A stretch of 36,031 bases of DNA from Methanobacteriota archaeon (GTDB lineage Archaea; Thermoplasmatota; Thermoplasmata; Thermoplasmatales; GCA-001856825). How positions within the stretch are numbered: the first letter of the stretch is position 1; each line of letters opens with the position of its first letter. A program made the position numbers and the translations under genes. The notes below the pieces were generated by a model. The model worked only from the letters and a program-made list of their open reading frames with translations, had not been told where the DNA came from and ran no database searches. This document shows, in pieces, positions 1,899 through 36,031 of this stretch. Where the stretch lies: assembly GCA_017857235.1 (NCBI GenBank), contig JAFMDN010000011.1, positions 1 to 36,031 of the forward strand, given 5' to 3'.

Positions 1899-3483
1899 TA
1901 ATTTAATATTAGGGCGCTTCATTTCTATAATTAAAATAGCTACTGTTATCAATACCGAATTGAAATACCAATTTTTGAAGAACACTAAAAAATTTCAAAC
2001 CAGCAATGCTTATGAATTAAATCATGCTAAAGCTTACCTTAAAAATTCCCTAATTTATCCAATTATAACAAATATATTAATTTACGGAGGTCTCTCCTCA
2101 TTATTTGGAGAAACTGCCTTAAGAAACCCCCATGACATAGGGAATATTCTGCTATCAATATTTTCTTTAATACTTATTCTCGGAATATTAACAGATTCCC
2201 AATTCTTCAGAGGAATTTGGGAGATGAATCTCATAGGTCCTTTAAGAGCTTTACCGATTAAGATTCATTCTGTCATAATTCCCGTCTCAACATTTATATA
2301 CAATGAGTCTTTTCTTTTTGCAATTAGTTTACCTGCTGCTTTAGTGCTTTACATGGGTTTACACAATCCTTACATTTTATTTATTATAATTGCATATACA
2401 ATTCTATTCATTTACGCCGCAAGGTTGATATCTCTCGCGCTAGGAATATTATGGTCAAAATATAACACAAACAGGATTTCCAAAAGACTATATATATCGC
2501 AATTCATGCAGGTATTGTTTATTCTCGTATTTGTGCTGTCAATACAAATTGTAACAAATCCACTTCTGTTAGGAAAAGTTTACTTTCCCCCAATACTATT
2601 TTTAATCTTCCCCTTAAACTACTATTCCTTCTATAACTTTTATTTACATTCGATTGCTATTTTTGGTATAGAATTCTTTCCCATTTTTGCCCTATATCAA
2701 TACGCAATTAGAATTGCATTCACGGAAAGGTTTGAAACATATATAAATATATCAAAAGAAGAAGTAAATACAAATGACGCCCATAGGAAATTCAAAACTA
2801 GAAATCAGGTAATGGCATTAATAGTTAAAGATCTGAAGAGCATAGCAAGAAAAAGAGGTGCTCTTTCAGTAATAATTCTCCCTGCCATAATCATTATACC
2901 AATACTAGTGAATTTATCAAGTCTTGGAACTGGCGCTAGCCAAGTATCTGGTGCTTTACCTTACATTTCTACAATATTTCTTATTACCTTTTTAGAGCTG
3001 GTTGCACTCGAAGGGAAAGGCGCGTGGCACCTATCTAATTTACCAATAACTAGAACAACCTTTTTCTTTGCAAAATTCTTGGAAGTTATAATTATTGCTG
3101 TTGCCTACTACTTTATTATACTTATTATTTTTACATTAACGAAAGGCTTAAGCTCTTTCTTTATACTTTTATTTTTACCGTTTTACATTATCTTGATTAG
3201 TACAATAATATTCGTTGGAGGAGGTTTTATTATCAAATCTATTCCAGAAAACTTAACAGTTATATCTATTGATGCAATAGGTGGGAGGGCTTTCCTTCTA
3301 AAGGTAATGATAATATCATTACCATTGATCGTATTAAATGCTTTCCTTTTTGCTCTGACTCCAAAATATCTTCACTTATTCACTCAAGGGATATTAAACT
3401 CTTATATTGGAGTTACCTTAATAGATATGGTTTTAATAACCGCTTCTTATTTCCTCCTAGTCAGAAGGATCAGTTTCTTCTAA
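1888..3483 (+). CDS. Polytopic membrane protein, ABC-2 permease-like
   Basis: A 531-residue, very hydrophobic protein with about a dozen predicted membrane segments in two blocks separated by a hydrophilic loop around residues 290-315. After the loop comes VKDLKSIARKRGALS followed by a long hydrophobic helix, an arrangement typical of ABC-2-type permeases, where a short cytoplasmic helix precedes a membrane span. No ATP-binding subunit is adjacent, so an exporter role is inference. It overlaps the upstream hydrolase gene by 11 bp and ends 11 bp before sua5. It could equally be an uncharacterised integral membrane protein. The hydrophobic character is certain; the family is tentative. Confidence 0.6.
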   Translation: MKFNNLILGRFISIIKIATVINTELKYQFLKNTKKFQTSNAYELNHAKAYLKNSLIYPIITNILIYGGLSSLFGETALRNPHDIGNILLSIFSLILILGILTDSQFFRGIWEMNLIGPLRALPIKIHSVIIPVSTFIYNESFLFAISLPAALVLYMGLHNPYILFIIIAYTILFIYAARLISLALGILWSKYNTNRISKRLYISQFMQVLFILVFVLSIQIVTNPLLLGKVYFPPILFLIFPLNYYSFYNFYLHSIAIFGIEFFPIFALYQYAIRIAFTERFETYINISKEEVNTNDAHRKFKTRNQVMALIVKDLKSIARKRGALSVIILPAIIIIPILVNLSSLGTGASQVSGALPYISTIFLITFLELVALEGKGAWHLSNLPITRTTFFFAKFLEVIIIAVAYYFIILIIFTLTKGLSSFFILLFLPFYIILISTIIFVGGGFIIKSIPENLTVISIDAIGGRAFLLKVMIISLPLIVLNAFLFALTPKYLHLFTQGILNSYIGVTLIDMVLITASYFLLVRRISFF

Positions 3484-3494
3484 GGTGGTGAGAA

Positions 3495-4481
3495 GTGAAA
3501 GTTGTCAAATTGGATCCTGTTAATCCAGATCAAGATAAGTTACTGGAACCGGCAGAATTAATCAAAAATGGAGAGCTTGTAGCCTTTCCCACTGAAACTG
3601 TCTATGGGTTAGGTGCAGATGCAACCAGTGATAAAGCTTGCCTAAAGATCTACGAAGCCAAGGGTAGACCACCAGACAATCCATTGATCGTTCATATCAA
3701 TAGTTTTGAAATGTTCTTCAAATACACAGATTTCCACGATGAAAGAATACTCAAAATTATGGAGGAGATTTGGCCGGGACCTATTACTCTTGTAGTTAAA
3801 AAAAGAAATATAGGAGATGTTCCCACCTCTGGATTGGATACTGTTGCCATAAGGATGCCGGGACATCCAATAGCCTTAAAATTAATAGAGCTCTCAGACA
3901 GACCAATAGCGGCACCCAGTGCTAATATCTCCGGAAGACCTAGCCCCACAAGGGCTAGCCATGTCATATCAGATTTGGGCAACAGAATTCCAATGATTAT
4001 TGATGGAGGCGAGACATTCTTTGGACTTGAATCAACAGTGATTCAACCTGTACAGGATAAGATTTTCATATTAAGACCAGGGCCTTTTTCCCCGGAAGAA
4101 ATAGAAGAAAAATTCAAAATGAAAGTTGTGTTGAGTGGCACTGAACAGCACGTTCCTCGTGCCCCTGGAATGAAATATAGACACTATGCCCCCAATAAGA
4201 AACTTGTTATAGCCAATGATTTGGATGAAATCCTGAAATTGTATAAAGAAAATCCAAACGCCCTAGTCCTATGTTCCAAAGAAACAGCTGAAAAATTTGA
4301 GGGAAATAAGTATATTTTGGGCTCCAGAGAAAATCTTTATGAAATTGCTAAAAATCTGTTCCATTCCTTTAGATATTTAGACCAATCTGACTATTCAATC
4401 GGTATAATTGAGAAATTCCAAGAAGCTGGCATAGGATATGCAATCATGAATAGAATAAAAAAAGCTGCTTCAAAAAATTAA
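3495..4481 (+). CDS. sua5: Threonylcarbamoyl-AMP synthase Sua5
   Basis: This cytoplasmic enzyme makes threonylcarbamoyl-AMP from threonine, bicarbonate and ATP, the first step of the t6A37 modification of ANN-decoding tRNAs. The 328 residues hold the YrdC-type domain (FPTETVYGLGADA, KGRPPDNPLIVHI, APSANISGRPSPT, GLESTVI) followed by the linker APGMKYRHYAP and a C-terminal Sua5 domain, so it is the long form rather than a lone YrdC. The start is GTG at 3495, chosen because GGTGGTGAG at 3484-3492 is a good SD and the next residues match the family N terminus. It converges on the APS kinase gene with a 4-bp overlap. Confidence 0.95.
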   Translation: MKVVKLDPVNPDQDKLLEPAELIKNGELVAFPTETVYGLGADATSDKACLKIYEAKGRPPDNPLIVHINSFEMFFKYTDFHDERILKIMEEIWPGPITLVVKKRNIGDVPTSGLDTVAIRMPGHPIALKLIELSDRPIAAPSANISGRPSPTRASHVISDLGNRIPMIIDGGETFFGLESTVIQPVQDKIFILRPGPFSPEEIEEKFKMKVVLSGTEQHVPRAPGMKYRHYAPNKKLVIANDLDEILKLYKENPNALVLCSKETAEKFEGNKYILGSRENLYEIAKNLFHSFRYLDQSDYSIGIIEKFQEAGIGYAIMNRIKKAASKN

Positions 4482-5047
4482 TTTTCCAAACTATTTTCTT
4501 CCTTCAATTTGACCCCATCTAAGAGATTGTTTGATTTAAGATGTGATAATATTTTATTGACGCTTTCCTCAACTGTTAGTTTGTCTGTGTCAATCACTAT
4601 ATCAGGATTCAAAGGCTCTTCGTAAGGATCCTGCAAACCAGTAAGGTTTTTTATCTCTCCAGCCAAGGCTTTCTTGTATAGTCCTTTTGGGTCTCTCTTT
4701 ATTAGAACATCTAACGGGCATCTTACATATACCTCTATAAAATTTTCAATTTCATTCCTTGCCCTTTCCCTGATTTCCCTGTAAGGCGAAATAAGTGGGA
4801 CAAGTGTTATCACGCCATTTCTAGACAGAATTTTTGCTACAAACATTACCCTTTCATTGTGCTTTTCCCTATCTTCTTTGCTGAAGCCCAAATCCTTAGA
4901 CAACCCCTTTCTTATTTCATCCCCATCAAGTATCTCCACCTTGTATCCATAGCTTTTTAATATCTTTTGAATTTCGTTTGCTAGAGTTGTTTTACCTGAG
5001 CCTGGAAGTCCCGTGAACCATATAACAAACCCCTTGTCATTTGACAT
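4478..5047 (-). CDS. cysC: Adenylylsulfate (APS) kinase
   Basis: This cytoplasmic enzyme phosphorylates APS to PAPS. The 189 residues contain the P-loop GLPGSGKTT (13-21), the DGDEIRKGLSKDLGFS stretch (41-56) that contacts APS, and the conserved DPKGLYKKA and DPYEEP segments, so the enzyme looks intact. It is the last gene of a minus-strand operon and overlaps the upstream phosphodiesterase gene by 11 bp; an SD-like GGAGGGG lies at 5055-5061. No ATP sulfurylase or PAPS reductase is in the window, so whether PAPS feeds assimilation or sulfation is not shown here. Confidence 0.95.
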   Translation of the reverse strand: MSNDKGFVIWFTGLPGSGKTTLANEIQKILKSYGYKVEILDGDEIRKGLSKDLGFSKEDREKHNERVMFVAKILSRNGVITLVPLISPYREIRERARNEIENFIEVYVRCPLDVLIKRDPKGLYKKALAGEIKNLTGLQDPYEEPLNPDIVIDTDKLTVEESVNKILSHLKSNNLLDGVKLKEENSLEN

Positions 5048-6428
5048 ATCTCATCCCCTCCATTACCTTGCCCTTTAGGCCTGTAATTTTTCTCACCGAA
5101 AAGACATCAAGCATGGTCGGCATTACATTGTAAATTGTTTCATTGAATATTTTACCAACCTTTTTGCCTTTCCTGTAAAGAACGTATATTCCATCATAAT
5201 CATGGACAGCATCATCTGGGCCTGTATCGTTCTCCAAAAGATACATTGTTTCATAACCTAGAGTGCCCGCTGCTCTCCAGTTTAGATCGTCAAAGTAAAC
5301 AAATAGATCCGATCTATCTCCATTTACAACATCATACTTTTCTTCAGGTTCAAAAACCTTAGTATCCCATGTTTCTCCATTTGGTCCCTTTATGGATTTC
5401 AATTTCTCCTTTAATATCTCAATTTCTTTTCTTACATCCTGGGGGTCAATAACTCCCTTTTCTTCCCTCCCTTTAATATTTAGGAAAACTCTTGCATAAT
5501 ACCCTCCCCATGCCCACGCTTTTGTGTTTTCCCAGTCAACCTCAACTTCATCAAGTGAAGAGCCTGGCTTAATACTGTTAGATTTTAGCTTCAGATAGCC
5601 CTCTTTTATTAACCATTCATTAATTGCAAATGCACCTTTCATACCTTTGGCTCCGTGATCAGAAACTATCATCACCAATGTATCCTCATCCACTTGCTCT
5701 ACCATTTCGCCAACGTACCTATCAACCATTTTAAAATAATTAACGAATTTTTCTCGCATCAAAGGATTGTTCTCATATAAATGATGCTTCTCATCTATGT
5801 ATCTCCAAAATGCATGGTGAATCCTGTCTATACCTATTTCAACAAAGAAAAATAGGTCCCATGGCTTATTCCTCATAAAATCAAGTGCCATCCTAAATCT
5901 TGTCTCTGTCATCTTGTAGATTTCGTCAATTATCTTTTCCTTTTCTGGCTTTCTAAATTTTACATCAAATTCGTAATCAGGATACTTTGCTAGAATGTCA
6001 TTTTTCAAACCGGGAGGATATGTAAATTCCTTATCCTTTCCTGGGGTGAGAAAATCTGTCACAAGGATTCCTGTTATAGGTCTTGGTGGGTAAGAAGGAG
6101 GAACTGCTATCACTATACTCCTTTTGTTTCTCTTTCCGATTATGTCCCATATTGTATCATATTTTACATCCCTTGAAGTTGGAATTTTAATTTTATTATA
6201 TGAATTTCCCTCCCTCGACCTGAAACCGTACAATCCTAATTCGCCAGGTGTTCTACCTGTTGCCATTACCATCCAAGCAGGCACAGTGATGGGTGGATCA
6301 CATGACCTCAACTTTCCCCAAACCCCATCCTCTCTCATCTTGCTTATATTTGGCAACTGATCAGCCAATTTATCGAACATTATACTTGGAGCTGCGCAGT
6401 CCAGACCAATTACGAGAAGTTTATTCAT
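5037..6428 (-). CDS. Alkaline-phosphatase-superfamily phosphodiesterase/nucleotide pyrophosphatase
   Basis: A 463-residue metal-dependent hydrolase of the type I phosphodiesterase/nucleotide pyrophosphatase group. Metal ligands are visible: Asp10 in GLDCAAP, the likely nucleophile Thr48 in ITVPAWM, Asp201 and His204/His205 in IDRIHHAFW, Asp257-His258 in VSDHGAKG, and a late His in DDAVHDYDG. There is no signal peptide, so it is cytoplasmic. The substrate is unknown; phosphodiester, pyrophosphate or sulfate-ester bonds are all possible in this superfamily. It lies between a ribbon-helix-helix gene 9 bp upstream and APS kinase, which overlaps it by 11 bp. This suggests a link to adenylylsulfate or sulfate/phosphate ester metabolism (inference). 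Confidence 0.85.
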   Translation of the reverse strand: MNKLLVIGLDCAAPSIMFDKLADQLPNISKMREDGVWGKLRSCDPPITVPAWMVMATGRTPGELGLYGFRSREGNSYNKIKIPTSRDVKYDTIWDIIGKRNKRSIVIAVPPSYPPRPITGILVTDFLTPGKDKEFTYPPGLKNDILAKYPDYEFDVKFRKPEKEKIIDEIYKMTETRFRMALDFMRNKPWDLFFFVEIGIDRIHHAFWRYIDEKHHLYENNPLMREKFVNYFKMVDRYVGEMVEQVDEDTLVMIVSDHGAKGMKGAFAINEWLIKEGYLKLKSNSIKPGSSLDEVEVDWENTKAWAWGGYYARVFLNIKGREEKGVIDPQDVRKEIEILKEKLKSIKGPNGETWDTKVFEPEEKYDVVNGDRSDLFVYFDDLNWRAAGTLGYETMYLLENDTGPDDAVHDYDGIYVLYRKGKKVGKIFNETIYNVMPTMLDVFSVRKITGLKGKVMEGMRYVK

Positions 6429-28003: not shown

Positions 28004-29197
28004 ATGATAAGGGATTATATTTCCCTCGATGAAGCCCTAAAGATCGGGAAGGAAGCGAAGTATGAACTTGATATGGAAGATAGAATATTCGAAATAAATA
28101 CTCAATATGCGGTAGGAAAGTTGTCCGCAGAAGAAGTTCTATCACCAAAAGATTATCCGGCCGAAAATAAAAGTGCAGTAGATGGGTATGCATTAAATTC
28201 AAAATATATCTTGTCAGCCTCCAGTTCTAATCCAATTTCTTTAAAAATAATAGGGAAGTCTGAGCCTGATAATCCTTTTGATGGAGTATTAAGGGATGAT
28301 GAAACCGTAAGGATTTTGACAGGTGCAAAGTTACCTCAAGGAGCAGATTCTATTTTGATGGATGAAGATGCAATCGTTGAAGGAGAATATTTAAAGGTAA
28401 ACAAAAATTTGAGACCATTTCAGAATGTCAGCTTCATCGGTGAAGATATAAAAAAGGGAGAAAGAATAATCTCCAGAGGGGAAATCATAAGTCCTGCGAA
28501 ACTTGTTGCACTTTTAGAAACAGGAATTAGAAATATTAAGATCCTTGATCTTAAGATAGGGATACTATCCACGGGGAATGAACTTTTATCAGGTAAGGTT
28601 AAGAACACTACTCAATATTTACTTATTGAAACCCTAAAGAAATACGGTTACAATCCTATTAATCTAGGTATAGCAGCGGATGATTATGAGGATTTAATTT
28701 CAAAATTGTCAAAAGAAAAGACTGATGTATTGATTTTAACCGGCGGAACAGGTCCCAGTGAAAATGACCTGACTAGTGAATTTGTGAAATCAACTGGAAA
28801 AATTCTTTTCCATGGAATAAAGATGCGACCCGGTAGAACAACCGGCTTGGGAATTATTGATGGAACTCCAGTTTTTATCATTTCAGGTTTACCAGTAGCT
28901 TCCCTTATGGCCTTGGAAAATGTTATAGATCCGCTTATAAGATACTGGTTTAATTTAGAACCTATAAGAGATCAATTTGTTAAAGCTAAATTAAACCGTG
29001 CAGTAGTTAATACCTTGGGATTTAGATCGTTTGTGAGGGTGAAATTAAATGAAAACTATGAGGCTGAACCTCTAAAAGTAACCGGTTCAGGGGTAATATC
29101 TTCTATTATCAATGCTGACGGAATATTAATTGTCCCAGAAAACGTTGAGGGTTATTCCGAAGGTGAAGAAGTAAATATTAAGCTCCTGAGGTGCTAA
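28004..29197 (+). CDS. moeA: Molybdopterin molybdenumtransferase MoeA
   Basis: MoeA inserts molybdate or tungstate into adenylylated molybdopterin. The 397 residues show SAVDGYALNS in the N-terminal domain, LTGAKLPQGADSILMDED, GILSTGNELL and LTGGTGPSENDLT in the MoaB-like domain, and the active-site loop IKMRPGRTTGLGIIDGTPVF followed by a C-terminal beta domain. It starts 25 bp after wtpC and ends one base before a second moeA, so it belongs to the importer operon. Archaea often have two MoeA paralogues, perhaps one each for Mo and W. Confidence 0.94.
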   Translation: MIRDYISLDEALKIGKEAKYELDMEDRIFEINTQYAVGKLSAEEVLSPKDYPAENKSAVDGYALNSKYILSASSSNPISLKIIGKSEPDNPFDGVLRDDETVRILTGAKLPQGADSILMDEDAIVEGEYLKVNKNLRPFQNVSFIGEDIKKGERIISRGEIISPAKLVALLETGIRNIKILDLKIGILSTGNELLSGKVKNTTQYLLIETLKKYGYNPINLGIAADDYEDLISKLSKEKTDVLILTGGTGPSENDLTSEFVKSTGKILFHGIKMRPGRTTGLGIIDGTPVFIISGLPVASLMALENVIDPLIRYWFNLEPIRDQFVKAKLNRAVVNTLGFRSFVRVKLNENYEAEPLKVTGSGVISSIINADGILIVPENVEGYSEGEEVNIKLLRC

Positions 29198-29198
29198 G

Positions 29199-31091
29199 AT
29201 GGTTAAAATTTTCCATAAACTCGTTTCCATTGAAGAAGCTAAAAAAATCCTAACCGATTCCTTCCAAAAATTAATTTCTGCTGAGGTTGTTGATATAACT
29301 GATTCCGTTGGACTGATAAGTTCTGAGGATGTTTATTCAACGCTTGACAACCCTCCTTTTGATAGATCTGAAGTTGATGGGTATGCTTTAGATCATAGGT
29401 CTATTTTGAACGCCGATGACTATAACCCAATAAAATTGAAAATAGTTGGTACGATAGAGGCTGGAAGCAAATATTTAGGAAAAATCCAAGATTTGAATGA
29501 GTGCATCTACGTAGCTACGGGAGCACCTATACCGAGAGGGTCGGATTCAGTTGTTATGGTAGAGTATACAAAAAGGGAAGGAGAATTTGTTTATGTATAT
29601 AGGCCAACAGCTCCAGGAGAAAATATTGCCCATGCTGGAAGTGATTTCACTGTAGAAGAAATCATTTTAAGGAAAGGAGAAAAAATTTCAGCTGAAAAGA
29701 TTGCAGTTTTGAGCGCTTCGGGAATTGGGAAAGTTTCGGTTTTATCAAAACTAAGAATTGGTATCCTATCCACAGGGAATGAAATTATTAGACCTGAAAA
29801 TGAAATTGAATTCGGACAAATATATGATGTAAATGGACCCTATGTCAAGACTCTTTTGGATTCATATAAATTGATCCAATCAGATTACTTGGGCATAATA
29901 AGAGATAGTTATGAATCCATAAGGGATTCATTGGAATCTTATTTAAAGAAATATAAAATTATAATCACATCTGGTGCTACTTCTGCTGGCTTTCATGACC
30001 TTTTGTACTCAGTTTTAGATGATATTGGAGCAACCCCAATTTATCATGGAATCGCAATAAAGCCAGGTAAGCCTTCATTCCTTTACTCGATTAATGGTAA
30101 TCTAGTAATTGGTCTGCCTGGCTTTCCATTGTCTGCTGCTTCGGTACTATATACAGTAATAATTCCATCAATCTTATCTGCTTATAATGTGGAAATAGGA
30201 AAACCTCAAAGCGTTAGATTGGGATTGAAAATAACTCCTGAAAGGGGGAAAGAACTTATATTACCTGGAATTCTAAGCAGAAATGGATATGTTTATCCCA
30301 TATTTGGTGAGTCCGGAAGTATTAGTAGGATCTCTCAGGCTGATGGATTTTTGATTGTTTCTGGAGATAGAATATTCTATAATAAAGGGGATCAGGTCAA
30401 TTTCTATAAAATGGCTGAACACGAGAAGGATTTAATCGCCATAGGTAGCAATGATCCAATATTAGAAAGGATCATTTTATTAACGACAAATAAGGCAATT
30501 ATAGTGAATGCAGGCTCTATGGGCGCTATAGAAGCAATGATTAATGGATATTCGGATTTAGGAGGTTTACACCTTTATAAAGATGGACAATACAATACCT
30601 TCGTAATGGATGATAAACTAAAAATGAAAGCCTCTATCATAAGAGGCTTTGATAGGATTCAAGGTTTTATTTCTAGAGATGGTTACAAATCCTTTAGAGA
30701 AATTATGGAAAGGAAAGCAATATTTGTCAATAGAAACAGAGGCTCCGGAACCAGAGCTATCATTGATGAATTGATAGAATCAGAATTTGGTAAAAATTTC
30801 GATAAATCAGCAATATACAATTATTTTTGGGAGGCTAAAAGTCATGCCGCTGTTGCCAGATCAGTATTGCAAGGTAGAGCAGATGTTGGTATAAGCATAA
30901 AATTTTATGCCGACTTATTCAATTTAAAATTCCATGAGGTAAAGAAGGAGAGCTATGATATCATCGTTTCCAGAGATTTCTTGGACAGTGCAGTAGGGAA
31001 AAAATTTATTGATAATTTAAAATCTTTGAAACAAACTAATCCACCGTCCGGTTATATATTCCCTGAGAATATTGGCGAAATAATTTCTTAA
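29199..31091 (+). CDS. moeA2: MoeA fused to a periplasmic-binding-type (LysR-substrate-like) domain
   Basis: A 630-residue two-part protein. Residues 1 to about 405 are a full MoeA (RSEVDGYALDHRS, GAPIPRGSDSVVMVEYT, GILSTGNEIIR, TSGATSAGFHDLLYS, IKPGKPSFLYSINGNLVIG). Residues from about 410 to 630 form a binding-protein-like domain (NAGSMGAIEAMINGYSDLGG, NRNRGSGTRAIIDELIE, VARSVLQGRADVGI) that is cytoplasmic here and may sense or hold the metal oxyanion. The fusion is known in archaea. Its start follows moeA by one base. The paralogue next door suggests division of labour between Mo and W. Confidence 0.92.
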   Translation: MVKIFHKLVSIEEAKKILTDSFQKLISAEVVDITDSVGLISSEDVYSTLDNPPFDRSEVDGYALDHRSILNADDYNPIKLKIVGTIEAGSKYLGKIQDLNECIYVATGAPIPRGSDSVVMVEYTKREGEFVYVYRPTAPGENIAHAGSDFTVEEIILRKGEKISAEKIAVLSASGIGKVSVLSKLRIGILSTGNEIIRPENEIEFGQIYDVNGPYVKTLLDSYKLIQSDYLGIIRDSYESIRDSLESYLKKYKIIITSGATSAGFHDLLYSVLDDIGATPIYHGIAIKPGKPSFLYSINGNLVIGLPGFPLSAASVLYTVIIPSILSAYNVEIGKPQSVRLGLKITPERGKELILPGILSRNGYVYPIFGESGSISRISQADGFLIVSGDRIFYNKGDQVNFYKMAEHEKDLIAIGSNDPILERIILLTTNKAIIVNAGSMGAIEAMINGYSDLGGLHLYKDGQYNTFVMDDKLKMKASIIRGFDRIQGFISRDGYKSFREIMERKAIFVNRNRGSGTRAIIDELIESEFGKNFDKSAIYNYFWEAKSHAAVARSVLQGRADVGISIKFYADLFNLKFHEVKKESYDIIVSRDFLDSAVGKKFIDNLKSLKQTNPPSGYIFPENIGEIIS

Positions 31092-31582: not shown

Positions 31583-31675
31583 GGTAAATAGATGCAATAT
31601 GAGAATAAATCTATTTAGAATATTAGCTATTAATGTCTAATAAAGACTCTCATCCTTTTCAAAAAATGTGTTGAT

Positions 31676-31766
31676 TTATTGGGTTTTCTGAGGTATAACA
31701 TTCAAAAGGTAAAAATATATTACCAGACCCCTCATCTCGCTAATTTGACCCTTTATTTTGATCTTT
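31676..31766 (+). repeat. Imperfect direct repeat, copy 1
   Basis: Ninety-one bases that align without gaps to 31934-32024. The best-preserved parts are a shared 18-19-base block beginning ATTCAAAAGG and the CCCTTTATTTTGA block near the end; the middle diverges. Copies are in the same orientation, 258 bp apart start to start. Confidence 0.75.
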
Positions 31767-31933
31767 ACAAGTATATTCTGAGAGTGATTTTTGACTATGC
31801 ATGCTTGCATAAGGTCAGAGTATCCTGAATTGCTTTATATAGAACAGTACGAGTAGTTTATTGCTGAGACCACTGTGGTTTCCGATGGCAATGACGAACA
31901 GGAATCCTCTAGTTATTCAAAAAACATATCCAA

Positions 31934-32024
31934 TTATTGAATTTTCGGAGGTATCGCATTCAAAAGGTAAAAATATACTGCCCGATCGCTTATCTTTAAA
32001 AATTGGCCCTTTATTTTGACCTTT
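31934..32024 (+). repeat. Imperfect direct repeat, copy 2
   Basis: Second copy of the 91-base repeat, equal in length to copy 1 and conserved at both ends and in the ATTCAAAAGG block. It could mark an old insertion or duplication, or be a regulatory module; no reading frame runs through it. Confidence 0.75.
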
Positions 32025-32134: not shown

Positions 32135-32405
32135 TTAAGTGAAAAGGGGGTATAGAAATCCGTGAAAGGTAATCTTTTACATTTTTACTATATTATATTC
32201 TTTATTAGATATTGATATTATTATATTTCAAACTTCGAACTCCGAGTATTTAAAGAAAAGTTATATTTTTAGATATTATTATTAAAACATGCATAATATA
32301 AATGGGAGGGATTCTAACTTTTATTATCACTCTCCTCCACGGCGCTTATACTATTGTTACACTCCACAACATTTGTGGGCTAGAAAGGACTATACCATCT
32401 GTCAA

Positions 32406-32612
32406 CTACTCCTCGCTAAAGCTTCGGAGCTTGTTGCTGTTCTCCCCTCCACCCGTGAGTGGAGATTCATTGAAACGCAACGATTGGCTGGTTGACATCA
32501 GCCTGAAGTACTCATTACAGAGCACCTCGATGTTCCTTGAAGCATTCAAGTCAGCATTTAATTCGAATCCACAATTCTTGCATTTGAATATTGGACCATG
32601 CCCCTCATTGTG
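32406..32612 (-). pseudogene. tnpB: TnpB (IS200/IS605 OrfB) C-terminal remnant
   Basis: The minus strand encodes 68 residues ending at TAG (32406-32408). They contain HNEGHGPIFKCKNCGFELN and NADLNASRNIE, the second half of the TnpB zinc ribbon and the D-x-N-A-S-R-N-I motif with the last RuvC aspartate. A stop (TGA) lies directly upstream in frame where the first zinc CxxC should be, and the rest of the gene is gone. TnpB is an RNA-guided nuclease of IS200/IS605 elements; this fragment cannot be active. The sequence after the ribbon is a typical variable tail rich in Ser, Asn and Gly. Confidence 0.82.
32419..32464 (-). repeat. Hairpins at the 3' end of the TnpB remnant
   Basis: Two stem-loops overlap the end of the tnpB frame. 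One has arms AAGCT (32419-32423) and AGCTT (32428-32432) with a four-base loop. The other has arms CTCCAC (32447-32452) and GTGGAG (32459-32464) with a six-base loop. Hairpins at this place are expected in IS200/IS605 right ends, where they serve transposition and the overlapping guide RNA; that role here is inference. Confidence 0.5.
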
Positions 32613-32750
32613 TCACATCCAGAGAGCAAGAGCTCATTGAGTTTCGAGAAGATTGTAGACAACATCCTCCAGATAGTAGCGGCGGAAAGCAGACAAGAGG
32701 CCCAAAATGTTAGGTTAATATACCCAGATGAAATGACCATTCATTTATGA
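32598..32750 (+). CDS. Short reading frame coupled to the ABC ATPase, possible gene remnant
   Basis: A 50-codon frame from ATG 32598 ends at TGA 32748-32750, overlapping the ATG of the ABC ATPase gene as ATGA. From about residue 6 it reads as a plausible protein end (SLSFEKIVDNILQIVAAES, then LIYPDEMTIHL). The first few codons overlap the antisense TnpB remnant, so the original gene probably extended further upstream and lost its start when the element inserted or the region was deleted. The family is not recognised. It may be only a chance frame, though the exact stop/start overlap argues for a former operon member. Confidence 0.4.
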   Translation: MPLIVSHPESKSSLSFEKIVDNILQIVAAESRQEAQNVRLIYPDEMTIHL

Positions 32751-33667
32751 GAATAGCGACCCATGGACTCACCAAGATCTATGATAAGAAGTATCAGGCC
32801 CTAGACCAACTGACATTCAATGTAGACTTAAATGGGATATTCTCGGTGATAGGCAGGAATGGTGCCGGGAAAACCACACTTATCAGAATACTCTCAACAG
32901 AGCTGCTACCGACCTCTGGTACAGCATTTGTGAACAACCTTGATGTCGTAAAAGATGCGACTGCACTGAGGAATGAAATTGCAGTGGTCCCGCAGGAGGC
33001 TAGGCCTCTTCCTTGGCTTACACCGCTGCAGACAGTCAGGTCATACCTGATGTGGAGGGGATATTCCTATCGGGAATCAAAGGAAAGATCAAAGGACGCA
33101 CTGAGGTCGCTAGGTCTGGAGAACCTGGAAAAGGTGAAGAACAGGAAACTTTCCGGAGGACAGAAGAGAAAACTGATGGTGGCTACTGTCATTGCAAGCG
33201 AGGCTCCTATAATTTTCTTGGATGAACCAACTACTGGCCTTGACTATGTATCGAGAAAGGAAATGTGGGAAATATTATCAAGACTCAAGAAGGATAGACT
33301 GATTATCCTGACCACCCACTATCTGGAGGAAGCAGAGATACTGGGGGACCGGATAATGATTCTCGACAAAGGAAAGCTTGCAGACATTGGTTCGATAGAC
33401 GAACTTCGTTCGAAAATAAAATTCCCTTACGTTCTGAGAATAATGTCAGATAATGTTGACATAAATGAAGATGGAGTAGAAATAAAAAGGGTTTCAAATA
33501 GGCAAACGCTGGTCTACGGTACTGCCTCAAAGATTTACAACCTTGTTCCGTATCTTGTGACCAACAAGATAAAATTCACTGTTGAGCAGGCCTCTCTTGG
33601 AAATATATTCGAACAATATGTGGGAGAAGAAGATGGAGGTGATAAGAATGAAAAGGAGGATTGGTAG
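32747..33667 (+). CDS. ABC-2-type transporter ATP-binding protein
   Basis: A 306-residue ATPase of the exporter type. Walker A GRNGAGKTT, a Q-loop in VVPQEARPLPW, signature LSGGQKRKLM, Walker B plus D-loop IIFLDEPTTGLD and switch His in TTHYLEEAE are all complete. A C-terminal extension (about 215-306) is typical of drug- or NatA-like ATPases. The partner permease overlaps its end. GC-rich third positions differ from the AT-rich genes to the left. A TATA-like TTAATATA at about 32715-32722 could drive it. The substrate is unknown. Confidence 0.93.
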   Translation: MRIATHGLTKIYDKKYQALDQLTFNVDLNGIFSVIGRNGAGKTTLIRILSTELLPTSGTAFVNNLDVVKDATALRNEIAVVPQEARPLPWLTPLQTVRSYLMWRGYSYRESKERSKDALRSLGLENLEKVKNRKLSGGQKRKLMVATVIASEAPIIFLDEPTTGLDYVSRKEMWEILSRLKKDRLIILTTHYLEEAEILGDRIMILDKGKLADIGSIDELRSKIKFPYVLRIMSDNVDINEDGVEIKRVSNRQTLVYGTASKIYNLVPYLVTNKIKFTVEQASLGNIFEQYVGEEDGGDKNEKEDW

Positions 33668-34391
33668 CCAGATTATGGCATCCATTCTTGTCAATGCGAT
33701 ATATGCCATGATAAACTATCCCATTATCCTGCTGAATACGCTCCTGGCTCCTCTGGCTATCCTTGCGGTTGTCACATTTGCAAGCCACGGGACCCTTCTT
33801 CCGGTTGCCGTGACTGGTGCACTGATAATGAATATGGTCTCCAGTGGCACTTCCATGCAACAGGATCTCTCTCACCTGAAAAATGATATGAGACTCCAGG
33901 ATATGATAGTAAGCTCTCCGACGACTTCTACCATATACATTGTGGGCATGGCAATATCGGAGATCGTGTATTCTATACCCACGATAGCATTCCTGATAGT
34001 TCTTCACTTTATATTCGTGAAGACAACAATCCTTGGAGGATTTATTATATTCCTAGCTCTTGCTACAACATTCACGTTTTCCGTATCGCTGGGATTCTTC
34101 CTTTCGACATTCACATCGGACATAATTCAGTCATGGGGGTTCTCCGGTATAATTTCCCCATTGCTCACCACAATTCCCCCTGTTTACTACCCGATAACGT
34201 ACATCCCATATCCGTACAGATACCTGTCATATCTTTCTCCGACAACTTACGCATCTGAAATCGTCCAGAGCCAGATAGGGGTCTTCCACCTGGGGTTCCA
34301 GAACTTTGTAATCTCCTGGGTTGTTCTCATATCGATCACCGTTGTTCTAGGCTATCTAGCAGTTAGAAGATCGAGGTGGAGGGAAGTTTGA
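33648..34391 (+). CDS. ABC-2-type transporter permease
   Basis: A 247-residue membrane protein with six predicted helices, partner of the ATPase encoded upstream. Typical features are NAIYAMINYPIILLNTLLAPL for the first helix pair, MVVSSPTTSTIY-like wording of the cytoplasmic loop (DMIVSSPTTSTIYIVG), and SPTTYASEIVQSQIG before the last helix. The frame is open further upstream, but the ATG at 33648 has a strong SD (GGAGGTGAT, 33635-33643) and gives a normal N terminus, so it is used; it lies 20 bp inside the ATPase gene. Substrate unknown; such pairs often export drugs, lipids or peptides. Confidence 0.88.
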   Translation: MKRRIGSQIMASILVNAIYAMINYPIILLNTLLAPLAILAVVTFASHGTLLPVAVTGALIMNMVSSGTSMQQDLSHLKNDMRLQDMIVSSPTTSTIYIVGMAISEIVYSIPTIAFLIVLHFIFVKTTILGGFIIFLALATTFTFSVSLGFFLSTFTSDIIQSWGFSGIISPLLTTIPPVYYPITYIPYPYRYLSYLSPTTYASEIVQSQIGVFHLGFQNFVISWVVLISITVVLGYLAVRRSRWREV

Positions 34392-34480
34392 ATTCATATC
34401 TATTAGAGAAACAATTGCCCGTTGGTGATAGATGGAAAATATGCAATAACAGCTAAACAGAAAGCTTTCCAGAGCTCCTA

Positions 34481-34690
34481 TCATTCCACGCAACATGACA
34501 TCTTGGAGATATCCCTTAAGAAGGATTGGGCGGCCAGTTTTATACCCTCCGATAGGGACGGGAAGATGTGGCTTGAGGATATGATATCACCTATGGTGAA
34601 ACCATACTTCACGGCATAAGAACCCTCCGTTATGATGTCAGTTGCGTTGGGGGAAACGACCAAAAACCCTCTGAAAATAAGGCTCCCAGA
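34481..34690 (-). pseudogene. merA: Mercuric reductase (MerA) C-terminal remnant
   Basis: On the minus strand about 70 residues match the C-terminal dimerisation part of mercuric reductases: FRGFLVVSPNATDIITEG, AVKYGFTIGDI, then FPSLSEGIKLAAQSF and RDISKMSCCVE before the TGA at 34481. The end corresponds to the family's EGxKLAAQxFxxDVxxLSCC, including the Cys-Cys pair that hands Hg(II) to the active site. The flavin- and NADPH-binding domains are missing, so the gene is a fragment. The plus-strand frame over it (34422-34619) is its antisense and is not a gene. No other mer gene is in the window. Confidence 0.85.
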
Positions 34691-34702
34691 GACAGTAAAC
34701 CC

Positions 34703-34987
34703 GTGTCCAACTTGAACAAGGATAATGAACCTCCCCATTTTAAAACCACTGAACAAGGATATCATGATTGGGATTACTTTAGAGTTACGGACACTTTTGA
34801 TTCATATTTGTTTGGAAAAAAGAAGCGTCATTTTAAGGGGAATGTTATAAAATTTCCAACTGTTGAAGCCCCTAAATACATTGAAAAAGGGTTCTTGGCC
34901 CCTGCTTGTCCCTCTGGTTATGCTTGGGATGAGTCGGAAAAAACTTGCGTTGAAATTCAAGAAGGTGAGAAAAATGGAAACAACTGA
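34703..34987 (+). CDS. Small uncharacterised protein, first gene of the accessory run
   Basis: Not recognised. The frame gives 94 residues from a GTG at 34703; no SD precedes it and the true start may be further in. The sequence is hydrophilic and aromatic-rich (GYHDWDYFRVTDTFDSYLF), then basic (GKKKRHFKGNVIKF), and ends with a two-cysteine part (PACPSGYAWDESEKTC). No signal peptide or membrane helix is present. It overlaps the next gene by 14 bp. The base composition is less GC-rich than its downstream neighbours. Confidence 0.55.
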   Translation: MSNLNKDNEPPHFKTTEQGYHDWDYFRVTDTFDSYLFGKKKRHFKGNVIKFPTVEAPKYIEKGFLAPACPSGYAWDESEKTCVEIQEGEKNGNN

Positions 34988-35468
34988 TGATGTAAGGAAG
35001 GAATGTATAAACCAGCATGGCTCCGGTCCAGAAACATCCGTAACCAGAACCCCTCAGGACTGCAAATACTTTCACACATGCTCAGCCAGTCTGTGCCCCT
35101 TAGATCCAGACGTCTCATTGAAAATATGGCTTCCGGAAGAGAGCGATACCGAGGAAATATGCAGAAACACAGAGTTCGCAGGCCTGCAGTTTGTGATAAC
35201 TCAGAAAAAGATCCGGAGGGCACTGAGAAACAGGAAACAGGAAAGGAACGACTATTTCACGTACGAAATGCTGAACCGTAACTTTATTGTGAGACCAGGA
35301 ATACGGGGAGCTCCTTCGGATCCTCCGGAAAACGTCAAAGACTCTATGGCGTGGTACGTCAAGAAAGAGAAGATATGGCTTACGAAACATCCTGAGATAA
35401 AACTCTCCAAGGATGATATCGAGAAACTGACTTCACGTTTCAAGAAAGAGGGTGAGGTGAGTCTATGA
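34974..35468 (+). CDS. Four-cysteine protein of mobile-element type, function unknown
   Basis: A 164-residue protein starting at ATG 34974, which follows the SD-like GAAGGTGAG (34961-34969). Cys30, Cys36 and Cys41 in DCKYFHTCSASLCPLD, with Cys63 in EEICRN after a conserved-looking IWLPEES, look like ligands of a zinc or iron-sulfur centre. The rest is basic and helical (KKIRRALRNRKQERND) and ends in a charged helix. It recalls small Cys-rich proteins of phages and plasmids, but no family can be named with certainty. Its stop overlaps the next start as ATGA. Confidence 0.65.
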   Translation: METTDDVRKECINQHGSGPETSVTRTPQDCKYFHTCSASLCPLDPDVSLKIWLPEESDTEEICRNTEFAGLQFVITQKKIRRALRNRKQERNDYFTYEMLNRNFIVRPGIRGAPSDPPENVKDSMAWYVKKEKIWLTKHPEIKLSKDDIEKLTSRFKKEGEVSL

Positions 35469-35602
35469 CAGCATTTCCAATTTTTGAACAAAAAATGCCT
35501 CTTTGCTGGGCGTTATTAGAGATATCAGGGCTAAGACGAGTAATTACACCTTTTGACCCCCATCTCTCTCAAAACATAGGGGAAGGAGGGGGTTTTGAAT
35601 GA
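35465..35602 (+). CDS. 45-residue reading frame within the ATGA-coupled run
   Basis: The frame starts at ATG 35465, overlapping the previous stop, behind an SD-like GAGGGTGAGGTGAG, and ends at TGA 35600-35602, overlapping the next start. The product (MTAFPIFEQKMPLCWALLEI...) has no recognisable domain, a weakly hydrophobic middle and a Gly-rich end. Support is positional: it fits exactly between two stop/start overlaps. It could be a real small protein or a spacer that keeps ribosomes running to the next gene. Confidence 0.45.
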   Translation: MTAFPIFEQKMPLCWALLEISGLRRVITPFDPHLSQNIGEGGGFE

Positions 35603-35724
35603 GAGCCATAATCTGGGGTCTCCCTCTGGGCATTCTCGTGATATTCGGTCTGGTCGTGGAATACGAAACTATCACAAGGATACTGGACTCTTTCATAGAT
35701 AGAATAGGGAGGTTAAGGAAATGA
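35599..35724 (+). CDS. 41-residue single-pass membrane protein
   Basis: ATG 35599 follows a strong SD (GGAAGGAGG, 35581-35589). The product has one hydrophobic helix (about residues 4-20, IIWGLPLGILVIFGLVV) and then a charged amphipathic tail (DSFIDRIGRLRK), a layout like small holin-like or accessory membrane peptides. No family is recognised. Its stop overlaps the following ATG as ATGA. Confidence 0.6.
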   Translation: MRAIIWGLPLGILVIFGLVVEYETITRILDSFIDRIGRLRK

Positions 35725-36014
35725 GCAAATTTGTGACAATTTCATATGAGAACGTTACCGTGACGGTACCCGAACTTTCGAGAATCAAAGTCTATCACAA
35801 ATTCAGGGGATCCATAAGAGAGTATATAATGAGCGAGGATGAGGATCATCTCACGCTCATTGTTCCTAGGGATGTCAAGCAGTTCTACGAGGGCAGAATA
35901 GTTTGGGACGTGAAAACATTCAGGAAGACTGACCTGAACGGTTTCGACTTCTACCCCGAAGTAACCGTTCTTGAAACGAGGAACTACACTGGGAGGGCTC
36001 AGGATGATGACTAA
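35721..36014 (+). CDS. Uncharacterised 97-residue protein
   Basis: Not recognised. The protein begins MSKFVTISYENVTVTVPELS, is predicted to be rich in beta strands (LTLIVPRDVKQFY, GRIVWDVKTFRK) and ends in an acidic tail (QDDD). It has no cysteine, signal or membrane helix. The SD GGGAGG (35707-35712) precedes the start, which overlaps the stop of the membrane peptide gene. The downstream frame begins inside its last codons, so the operon continues. Confidence 0.6.
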   Translation: MSKFVTISYENVTVTVPELSRIKVYHKFRGSIREYIMSEDEDHLTLIVPRDVKQFYEGRIVWDVKTFRKTDLNGFDFYPEVTVLETRNYTGRAQDDD

Positions 36015-36031
36015 ATTCATGAGGATCCCAG
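36004..36031 (+). CDS. Start of the next gene in the run, partial
   Basis: An ATG at 36004 (or 36007) follows the SD GGGAGGG (35991-35997) and overlaps the end of the previous gene; nine codons (MMTKFMRIP) are visible before the window ends. Nothing can be said about function. Confidence 0.5.

Follow-up and report, generated by a model that had tools for sequence, protein, structure and literature searches.

Gene content of the right-hand end of the contig

The window, that is, the whole stretch of DNA analysed, is contig C49 in its entirety (36,031 bp). It belongs to a Thermoplasmatales-like MAG of 1.28 Mb in 58 contigs that is 89.5% complete and comes from an acidophilic archaeon; relatives with names include Thermoplasmatales MAGs, I-plasma among them, and Acidiplasma aeolicum. 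Its right-hand end carries a run of frames that ends with the contig itself, at position 36031, and that comprises the following features.

34646–34987, plus strand: putative 3′ remnant (about 100 codons) of a replication ATPase/helicase-like gene for a 635–754-aa protein, its 5′ part missing (tblastn and profile match)
34974–35468, plus strand: 164-aa protein of an unnamed four-cysteine family (homologs and motif)
35465–35602, plus strand: 45-aa frame, probably not a gene (GC3 and inverted segment)
35519–35601, minus strand: inverted homolog of the final stretch of the sister-genus four-cysteine gene (local alignments)
35527–35556, minus strand: 30-bp element TCAAAAGGTGTAATTACTCGTCTTAGCCCT (pattern matches in 117 genomes)
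35599–35724, plus strand: 41-aa peptide, predicted to have a single membrane helix, with a basic tail (same-position peptides in three loci)
35721–36014, plus strand: 97-aa protein, probably a small beta-barrel (homologs and all-beta model)
36004–36031, plus strand: further frame (start ATG 36004 or 36007), cut off by the contig end

The first-pass annotation had described a tight run of small unknown genes, joined by ATGA overlaps and mostly preceded by strong Shine-Dalgarno sequences. The four frames beginning at 34974, 35465, 35599 and 35721 were confirmed from the sequence, as were the three ATGA overlaps (35465–35468, 35599–35602 and 35721–35724), and GA-rich Shine-Dalgarno-like stretches are visible by eye before each of the four starts. 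As a run of unknown genes the description holds only in part: its first frame is better read as the remnant of a gene and its third (35465) is probably no gene. Overlaps of this length are unexceptional: of 14 closely spaced gene pairs on the same strand in the rest of the window, 3 also share exactly 4 bases. The run is considered more than a chance arrangement because the 34974 and 35721 frames are conserved in other genomes, not because of the overlaps, and homologs of both adjoin replication genes in loci L015 and L016.

The 94-aa frame proposed at 34703 does not survive as a gene. It lies inside a longer stretch that stays open beyond the proposed GTG on the 5′ side, where no start codon occurs, and to which residues 564–663 of the 665-aa replication protein of L016 align at 34646–34963 (tblastn, E 4.6e-17). 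A profile match links the stretch to the C-termini of the large proteins of L016, L020 and L015 (635–754 aa), each of which precedes the homolog of the 34974 frame; in the window the two reading frames overlap by 14 nt. Judged from these matches, the first frame is the remnant of a replication ATPase gene, of which only the last 100 or so codons are present. The rest of the L016 protein gave no other match by tblastn in this 89.5%-complete genome, nor was a full copy of the gene found there.

At around 32.3 kb the GC content climbs from some 35% to 44%, close to the remnant of a TnpB-like gene of the IS605 family (32290–32610, minus strand, recognised by eye). Further to the right, an ABC transporter (32747–34391) is about 71% identical to its sister-genus copies, and no comparable copy was found in the one same-genus genome. 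A chimeric join, or sister-genus contamination, beginning at about 32.3 kb could produce the same picture. However, no near-identical repeat lies at this point, other genomic copies of the TnpB-like remnant being only 73–78% identical and too diverged for ordinary repeat collapse, and horizontal transfer accounts for the same facts. An artefactual right end is unlikely, and horizontal acquisition is the likeliest explanation of both the GC shift and the transporter.

A 50-aa frame (32598–32750) shares 4 nt with the start of the ABC gene and has its match in the region preceding the ABC genes of the sister genus; it probably represents what is left, at the 3′-end, of a truncated gene upstream. 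A 65-aa frame (34422–34619) that separates the helicase remnant from the ABC permease had no match in the loci compared. Further to the left, non-coding DNA contains a 109-nt direct repeat (31658–31766 and 31916–32024; 78% identical), a related stretch of which is present on contig C42, and two adjoining MoeA-like genes (28004–31091) were recognised by eye within a molybdenum-cofactor and transport cluster.

The four-cysteine family and its gene neighbourhoods

The 164-aa protein belongs to a family defined by the motif C-x5,6-C-x4-C-P-x7-9-W-x6,10-C, which is invariant in all 25 members examined and is followed by a conserved YF[TS]xxML block. Sister-genus members carry a C-terminal tail that is absent from the protein in the window. 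A first search recovered homologs in 10 of 61 genomes, including its own; the family is present in 14 of 400 genomes of the archaeal class, and in 9 of 155 genomes of a bacterial class that includes two MAGs titled Syntrophaceae. It is new to the libraries searched, as far as profile comparison can tell: no model in Pfam, NCBIfam or PADLOC matches it, and PHROGs gave weak matches (E 0.001–0.005) in just 2 of 14 members. Single-protein queries identified the family in only two, near-identical, IMG/VR contigs, and viral contigs queried with three alignments yielded no match. Matches in viral and plasmid databases had been suggested as a check on the proposed module; plasmid and phage records returned none for the family, and plasmid records none for the L020 helicase. 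A structure model of the 164-aa protein, built from a 12-row alignment (pLDDT 71), had no match in the PDB or in a viral structure library. A literature search of partial coverage found no paper on the family or its elements.

Linkage of the family to replication genes is conserved in archaea and bacteria alike, and it is here that the attribution of the run to a virus or plasmid module finds its support. In archaea, homologs adjoin primase or helicase genes of integrated elements, several of them with tyrosine recombinases, and DNA primase profiles match at these loci. A D5_N/DUF5906 helicase takes the place of the large protein before the family gene in L018, Prim-Pol genes are also present in L019 and L021, and L022 has the reversed order, with the family gene upstream of the primase. 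No replication gene was recognised in the 8.6-kb contig of L017. In L020, positions 2611–5916 (minus strand) encode a 1,101-aa MCM-like protein with an apparent intein, as seen by eye.

In bacteria, family members lie within the replication modules of prophages, after replication O-like, replication-initiation or DnaC-like loader genes, often with a 4-nt overlap, and an integrase then follows the family gene. The order in phage contigs L129 and L130 is clamp-loader-like, RecA, PDDEXK_15, family member and SMC/Rad50-like AAA protein. In L138, L154, L156 and L157 the four-cysteine part is joined, within a single reading frame, to a RusA-like part on its upstream side, which PHROGs supports through phrog_34 in L154 (E 1.7e-16, confirmed with the whole protein) and L138 (E 1.8e-13) and Pfam supports weakly; the RusA part of L156 was not recognised by PHROGs or Pfam profiles. 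The 590–602-aa fusion in L138/G419 was rejected as a whole, its frame crossing out-of-frame sequence upstream; the RusA-like and four-cysteine parts are nevertheless in one frame there, and the case for joining is carried mainly by L154, L156 and L157. The protein in the window consists of the four-cysteine domain alone, the one found joined to RusA in those loci, and lacks the RusA nuclease domain.

An inverted segment within the run and the genes beyond it

Frame 35465 has a GC3 of 0.28, against 0.52–0.56 in the surrounding frames, and the matched loci contain no convincing homolog of it in sense orientation. On the opposite strand, the segment 35519–35601 resembles the last part of the sister-genus four-cysteine gene: local alignments with eight relatives scored 50–65 on the minus strand and 38–52 on the plus strand. 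The 30-bp element within it sits, in the sister genus, in the DNA of the extra C-terminal tail. Among 117 genomes it has nine matches, all in loci of the four-cysteine family, eight in the sense orientation and one, that of the window, inverted; the reversed pattern, used as a control, had none. Given this distribution, a chromosomal attachment site is not supported as the nature of the element.

Read most simply, the segment is the 3′-end of the four-cysteine gene in locally inverted form, and frame 35465 would probably then be an inverted relic rather than a gene. Its ATG, the strong Shine-Dalgarno-like stretch and the ATGA links on both sides are what a real small gene would show. The frame is nevertheless very doubtful because its low GC3 coincides with an inverted copy of the neighbouring gene family's DNA; it runs antisense across a segment that elsewhere codes for the four-cysteine tail, and this, together with the want of convincing homologs, makes a functional gene improbable. 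A sense C-terminal tail of the 164-aa family was also considered. The sense match scores only 5.8 bits, although this exceeds all 1,398 scored shuffles (of 2,000), and the proposal was dropped because the opposite-strand DNA match is far stronger and the only copy of the 30-bp element present is inverted. Among seven relatives, synonymous-codon identity is 0.83 in the 30-bp element against 0.54 in the gene body, which hints at constraint on DNA or RNA but would equally be expected from recent exchange between elements.

The N-terminal 22 residues of the 164-aa protein resemble the leader of Hfq-like proteins encoded by related elements (21.3 bits, a score reached by none of 3,000 shuffles), and the similarity extends to the DNA. 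This leader, the truncated helicase gene and the inversion together fit a recombined, decaying element.

At the position of the 41-aa peptide, sister-genus loci L015, L016 and L019 encode one-helix peptides of 42–43 aa that are likewise linked to the four-cysteine gene by ATGA. Their sequences resemble that of the 41-aa peptide only weakly, the scores being reached by 35, 337 and 56 of 1,000 half-shuffled controls. The 97-aa protein has homologs in L015, L016 and, near a primase gene, in genome G002 (E 4e-36). It is probably a small beta-barrel of Sm/SH3-like type, as suggested by an all-beta model built from a 2-row alignment (pLDDT 71), for which Foldseek returned weak, non-significant matches including Gemin6/7, Hfq and LSm (best E 0.1). 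No Pfam profile matched the protein, Hfq and LSM included, and a PDB profile search gave a chance-level match.

A gene for an Hfq-like protein is often close to the family gene in the archaeal loci. Such proteins lie beside replication genes in L015 (10321–10623), L016 (8643–8945), L019 (8952–9392), L024 (936–1424) and L035 (4947–5315); that of L019 is above the Pfam Hfq cut-off, and the best PDB matches are the archaeal Hfq-like structures 5dy9 and MJ1435. The likeness of the window to Hfq/Sm-like systems (PF17209) lies in these neighbours of the family in related elements and in the probable beta-barrel of the 97-aa protein. It differs in that its own genome (89.5% complete) has no match to the Hfq-like profile, which is found in 32 of 117 genomes of the order, and in that the 97-aa protein itself is without such a profile match.

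A probable replication module and the proposed role of its four-cysteine protein

The gene run is very probably the replication module of a mobile element. The window would hold the downstream end of such a module, from a plasmid- or virus-like element in integrated form. The element would be cut short on its left, the 5′ part of the helicase gene being gone, and rearranged locally, with the four-cysteine gene apparently inverted at its 3′-end. No integrase or recombinase gene was seen within the window, whose contig ends at 36031, and two weak recombinase matches lie on other contigs of the genome. Like the primase-helicase modules of integrated archaeal plasmids and viruses (Prim-Pol PF09250; D5_N/DUF5906), the window has a replication ATPase gene, here as a putative remnant; its relatives have primase or helicase genes in the same position, and a tyrosine recombinase is near several of them. 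Unlike those modules, it is without primase, helicase body and integrase, and its accessory genes are undescribed in the libraries searched. The bacterial members lie inside the replication and recombination block of lambdoid phages (O, DnaC-like loader, RusA; PF04492, phrog_50, phrog_34), and some are joined to its RusA-like part. However, the four-cysteine domain is no known part of that block, and the archaeal members examined are without RusA.

Within this module, the four cysteines may bind zinc or an iron-sulphur cluster, and the domain could hold or target forked or branched DNA. In archaeal elements the protein would work beside the primase-helicase, while in bacterial prophages the domain would be an addition to a RusA-like junction resolvase; the 97-aa beta-barrel could be a nucleic-acid-binding partner. 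The genomic context and the fusion suggest a metal-binding accessory that would act on DNA when the element replicates and recombines, an assignment that is tentative and falls a little short of an even chance. Taken together, a replication module of integrated plasmid or viral origin, truncated and rearranged, with the four-cysteine protein in an accessory role, is given a probability of about 0.6.

The four-cysteine protein might instead be a zinc-finger-type transcription regulator, its replication neighbours reflecting the timing of expression. A small protein with a cysteine cluster, and with HTH proteins among its neighbours in some loci, would suit that function. It agrees poorly, however, with the joining to RusA in several loci, with neighbours in unrelated elements that include primase, DnaC-like loader, RecA and nuclease genes, and with the fact that no HTH or zinc-ribbon profile was recognised in the 164-aa protein; regulation is an unlikely role. 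Small mobile-element genes that include a one-helix membrane peptide also recall defence, counter-defence or toxin-antitoxin units, but the conserved partners are replication genes and PADLOC matched neither the 164-aa and 97-aa proteins nor three homologs, which makes an operon of that kind more improbable still.

A bolder version of the accessory role would make the family an undescribed metal-dependent branched-DNA factor common to archaeal and bacterial elements and paired with very different replication machines, and the 30-bp element a site acting at the DNA level, for instance as an origin or in recombination. Such a site would account both for the raised synonymous conservation and for the survival of the element in inverted orientation in the window. 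The two propositions together are nonetheless doubtful.

With the replication module retained as the preferred reading, the window itself teaches that one “gene” in a tidy ATGA chain is probably an inverted relic. More broadly, a protein found in replication modules of both archaeal and bacterial elements is informative, since the core machinery is not the same in the two. A small, invariant four-cysteine domain that accompanies primase-helicases in archaea, and DnaC-like loaders and RusA resolvases in bacteria, points to a common step. That step might be the processing of forks or branches in DNA, and the libraries searched record no protein of this type for it. With the RusA-joined proteins, the branched-DNA idea can be tested directly.
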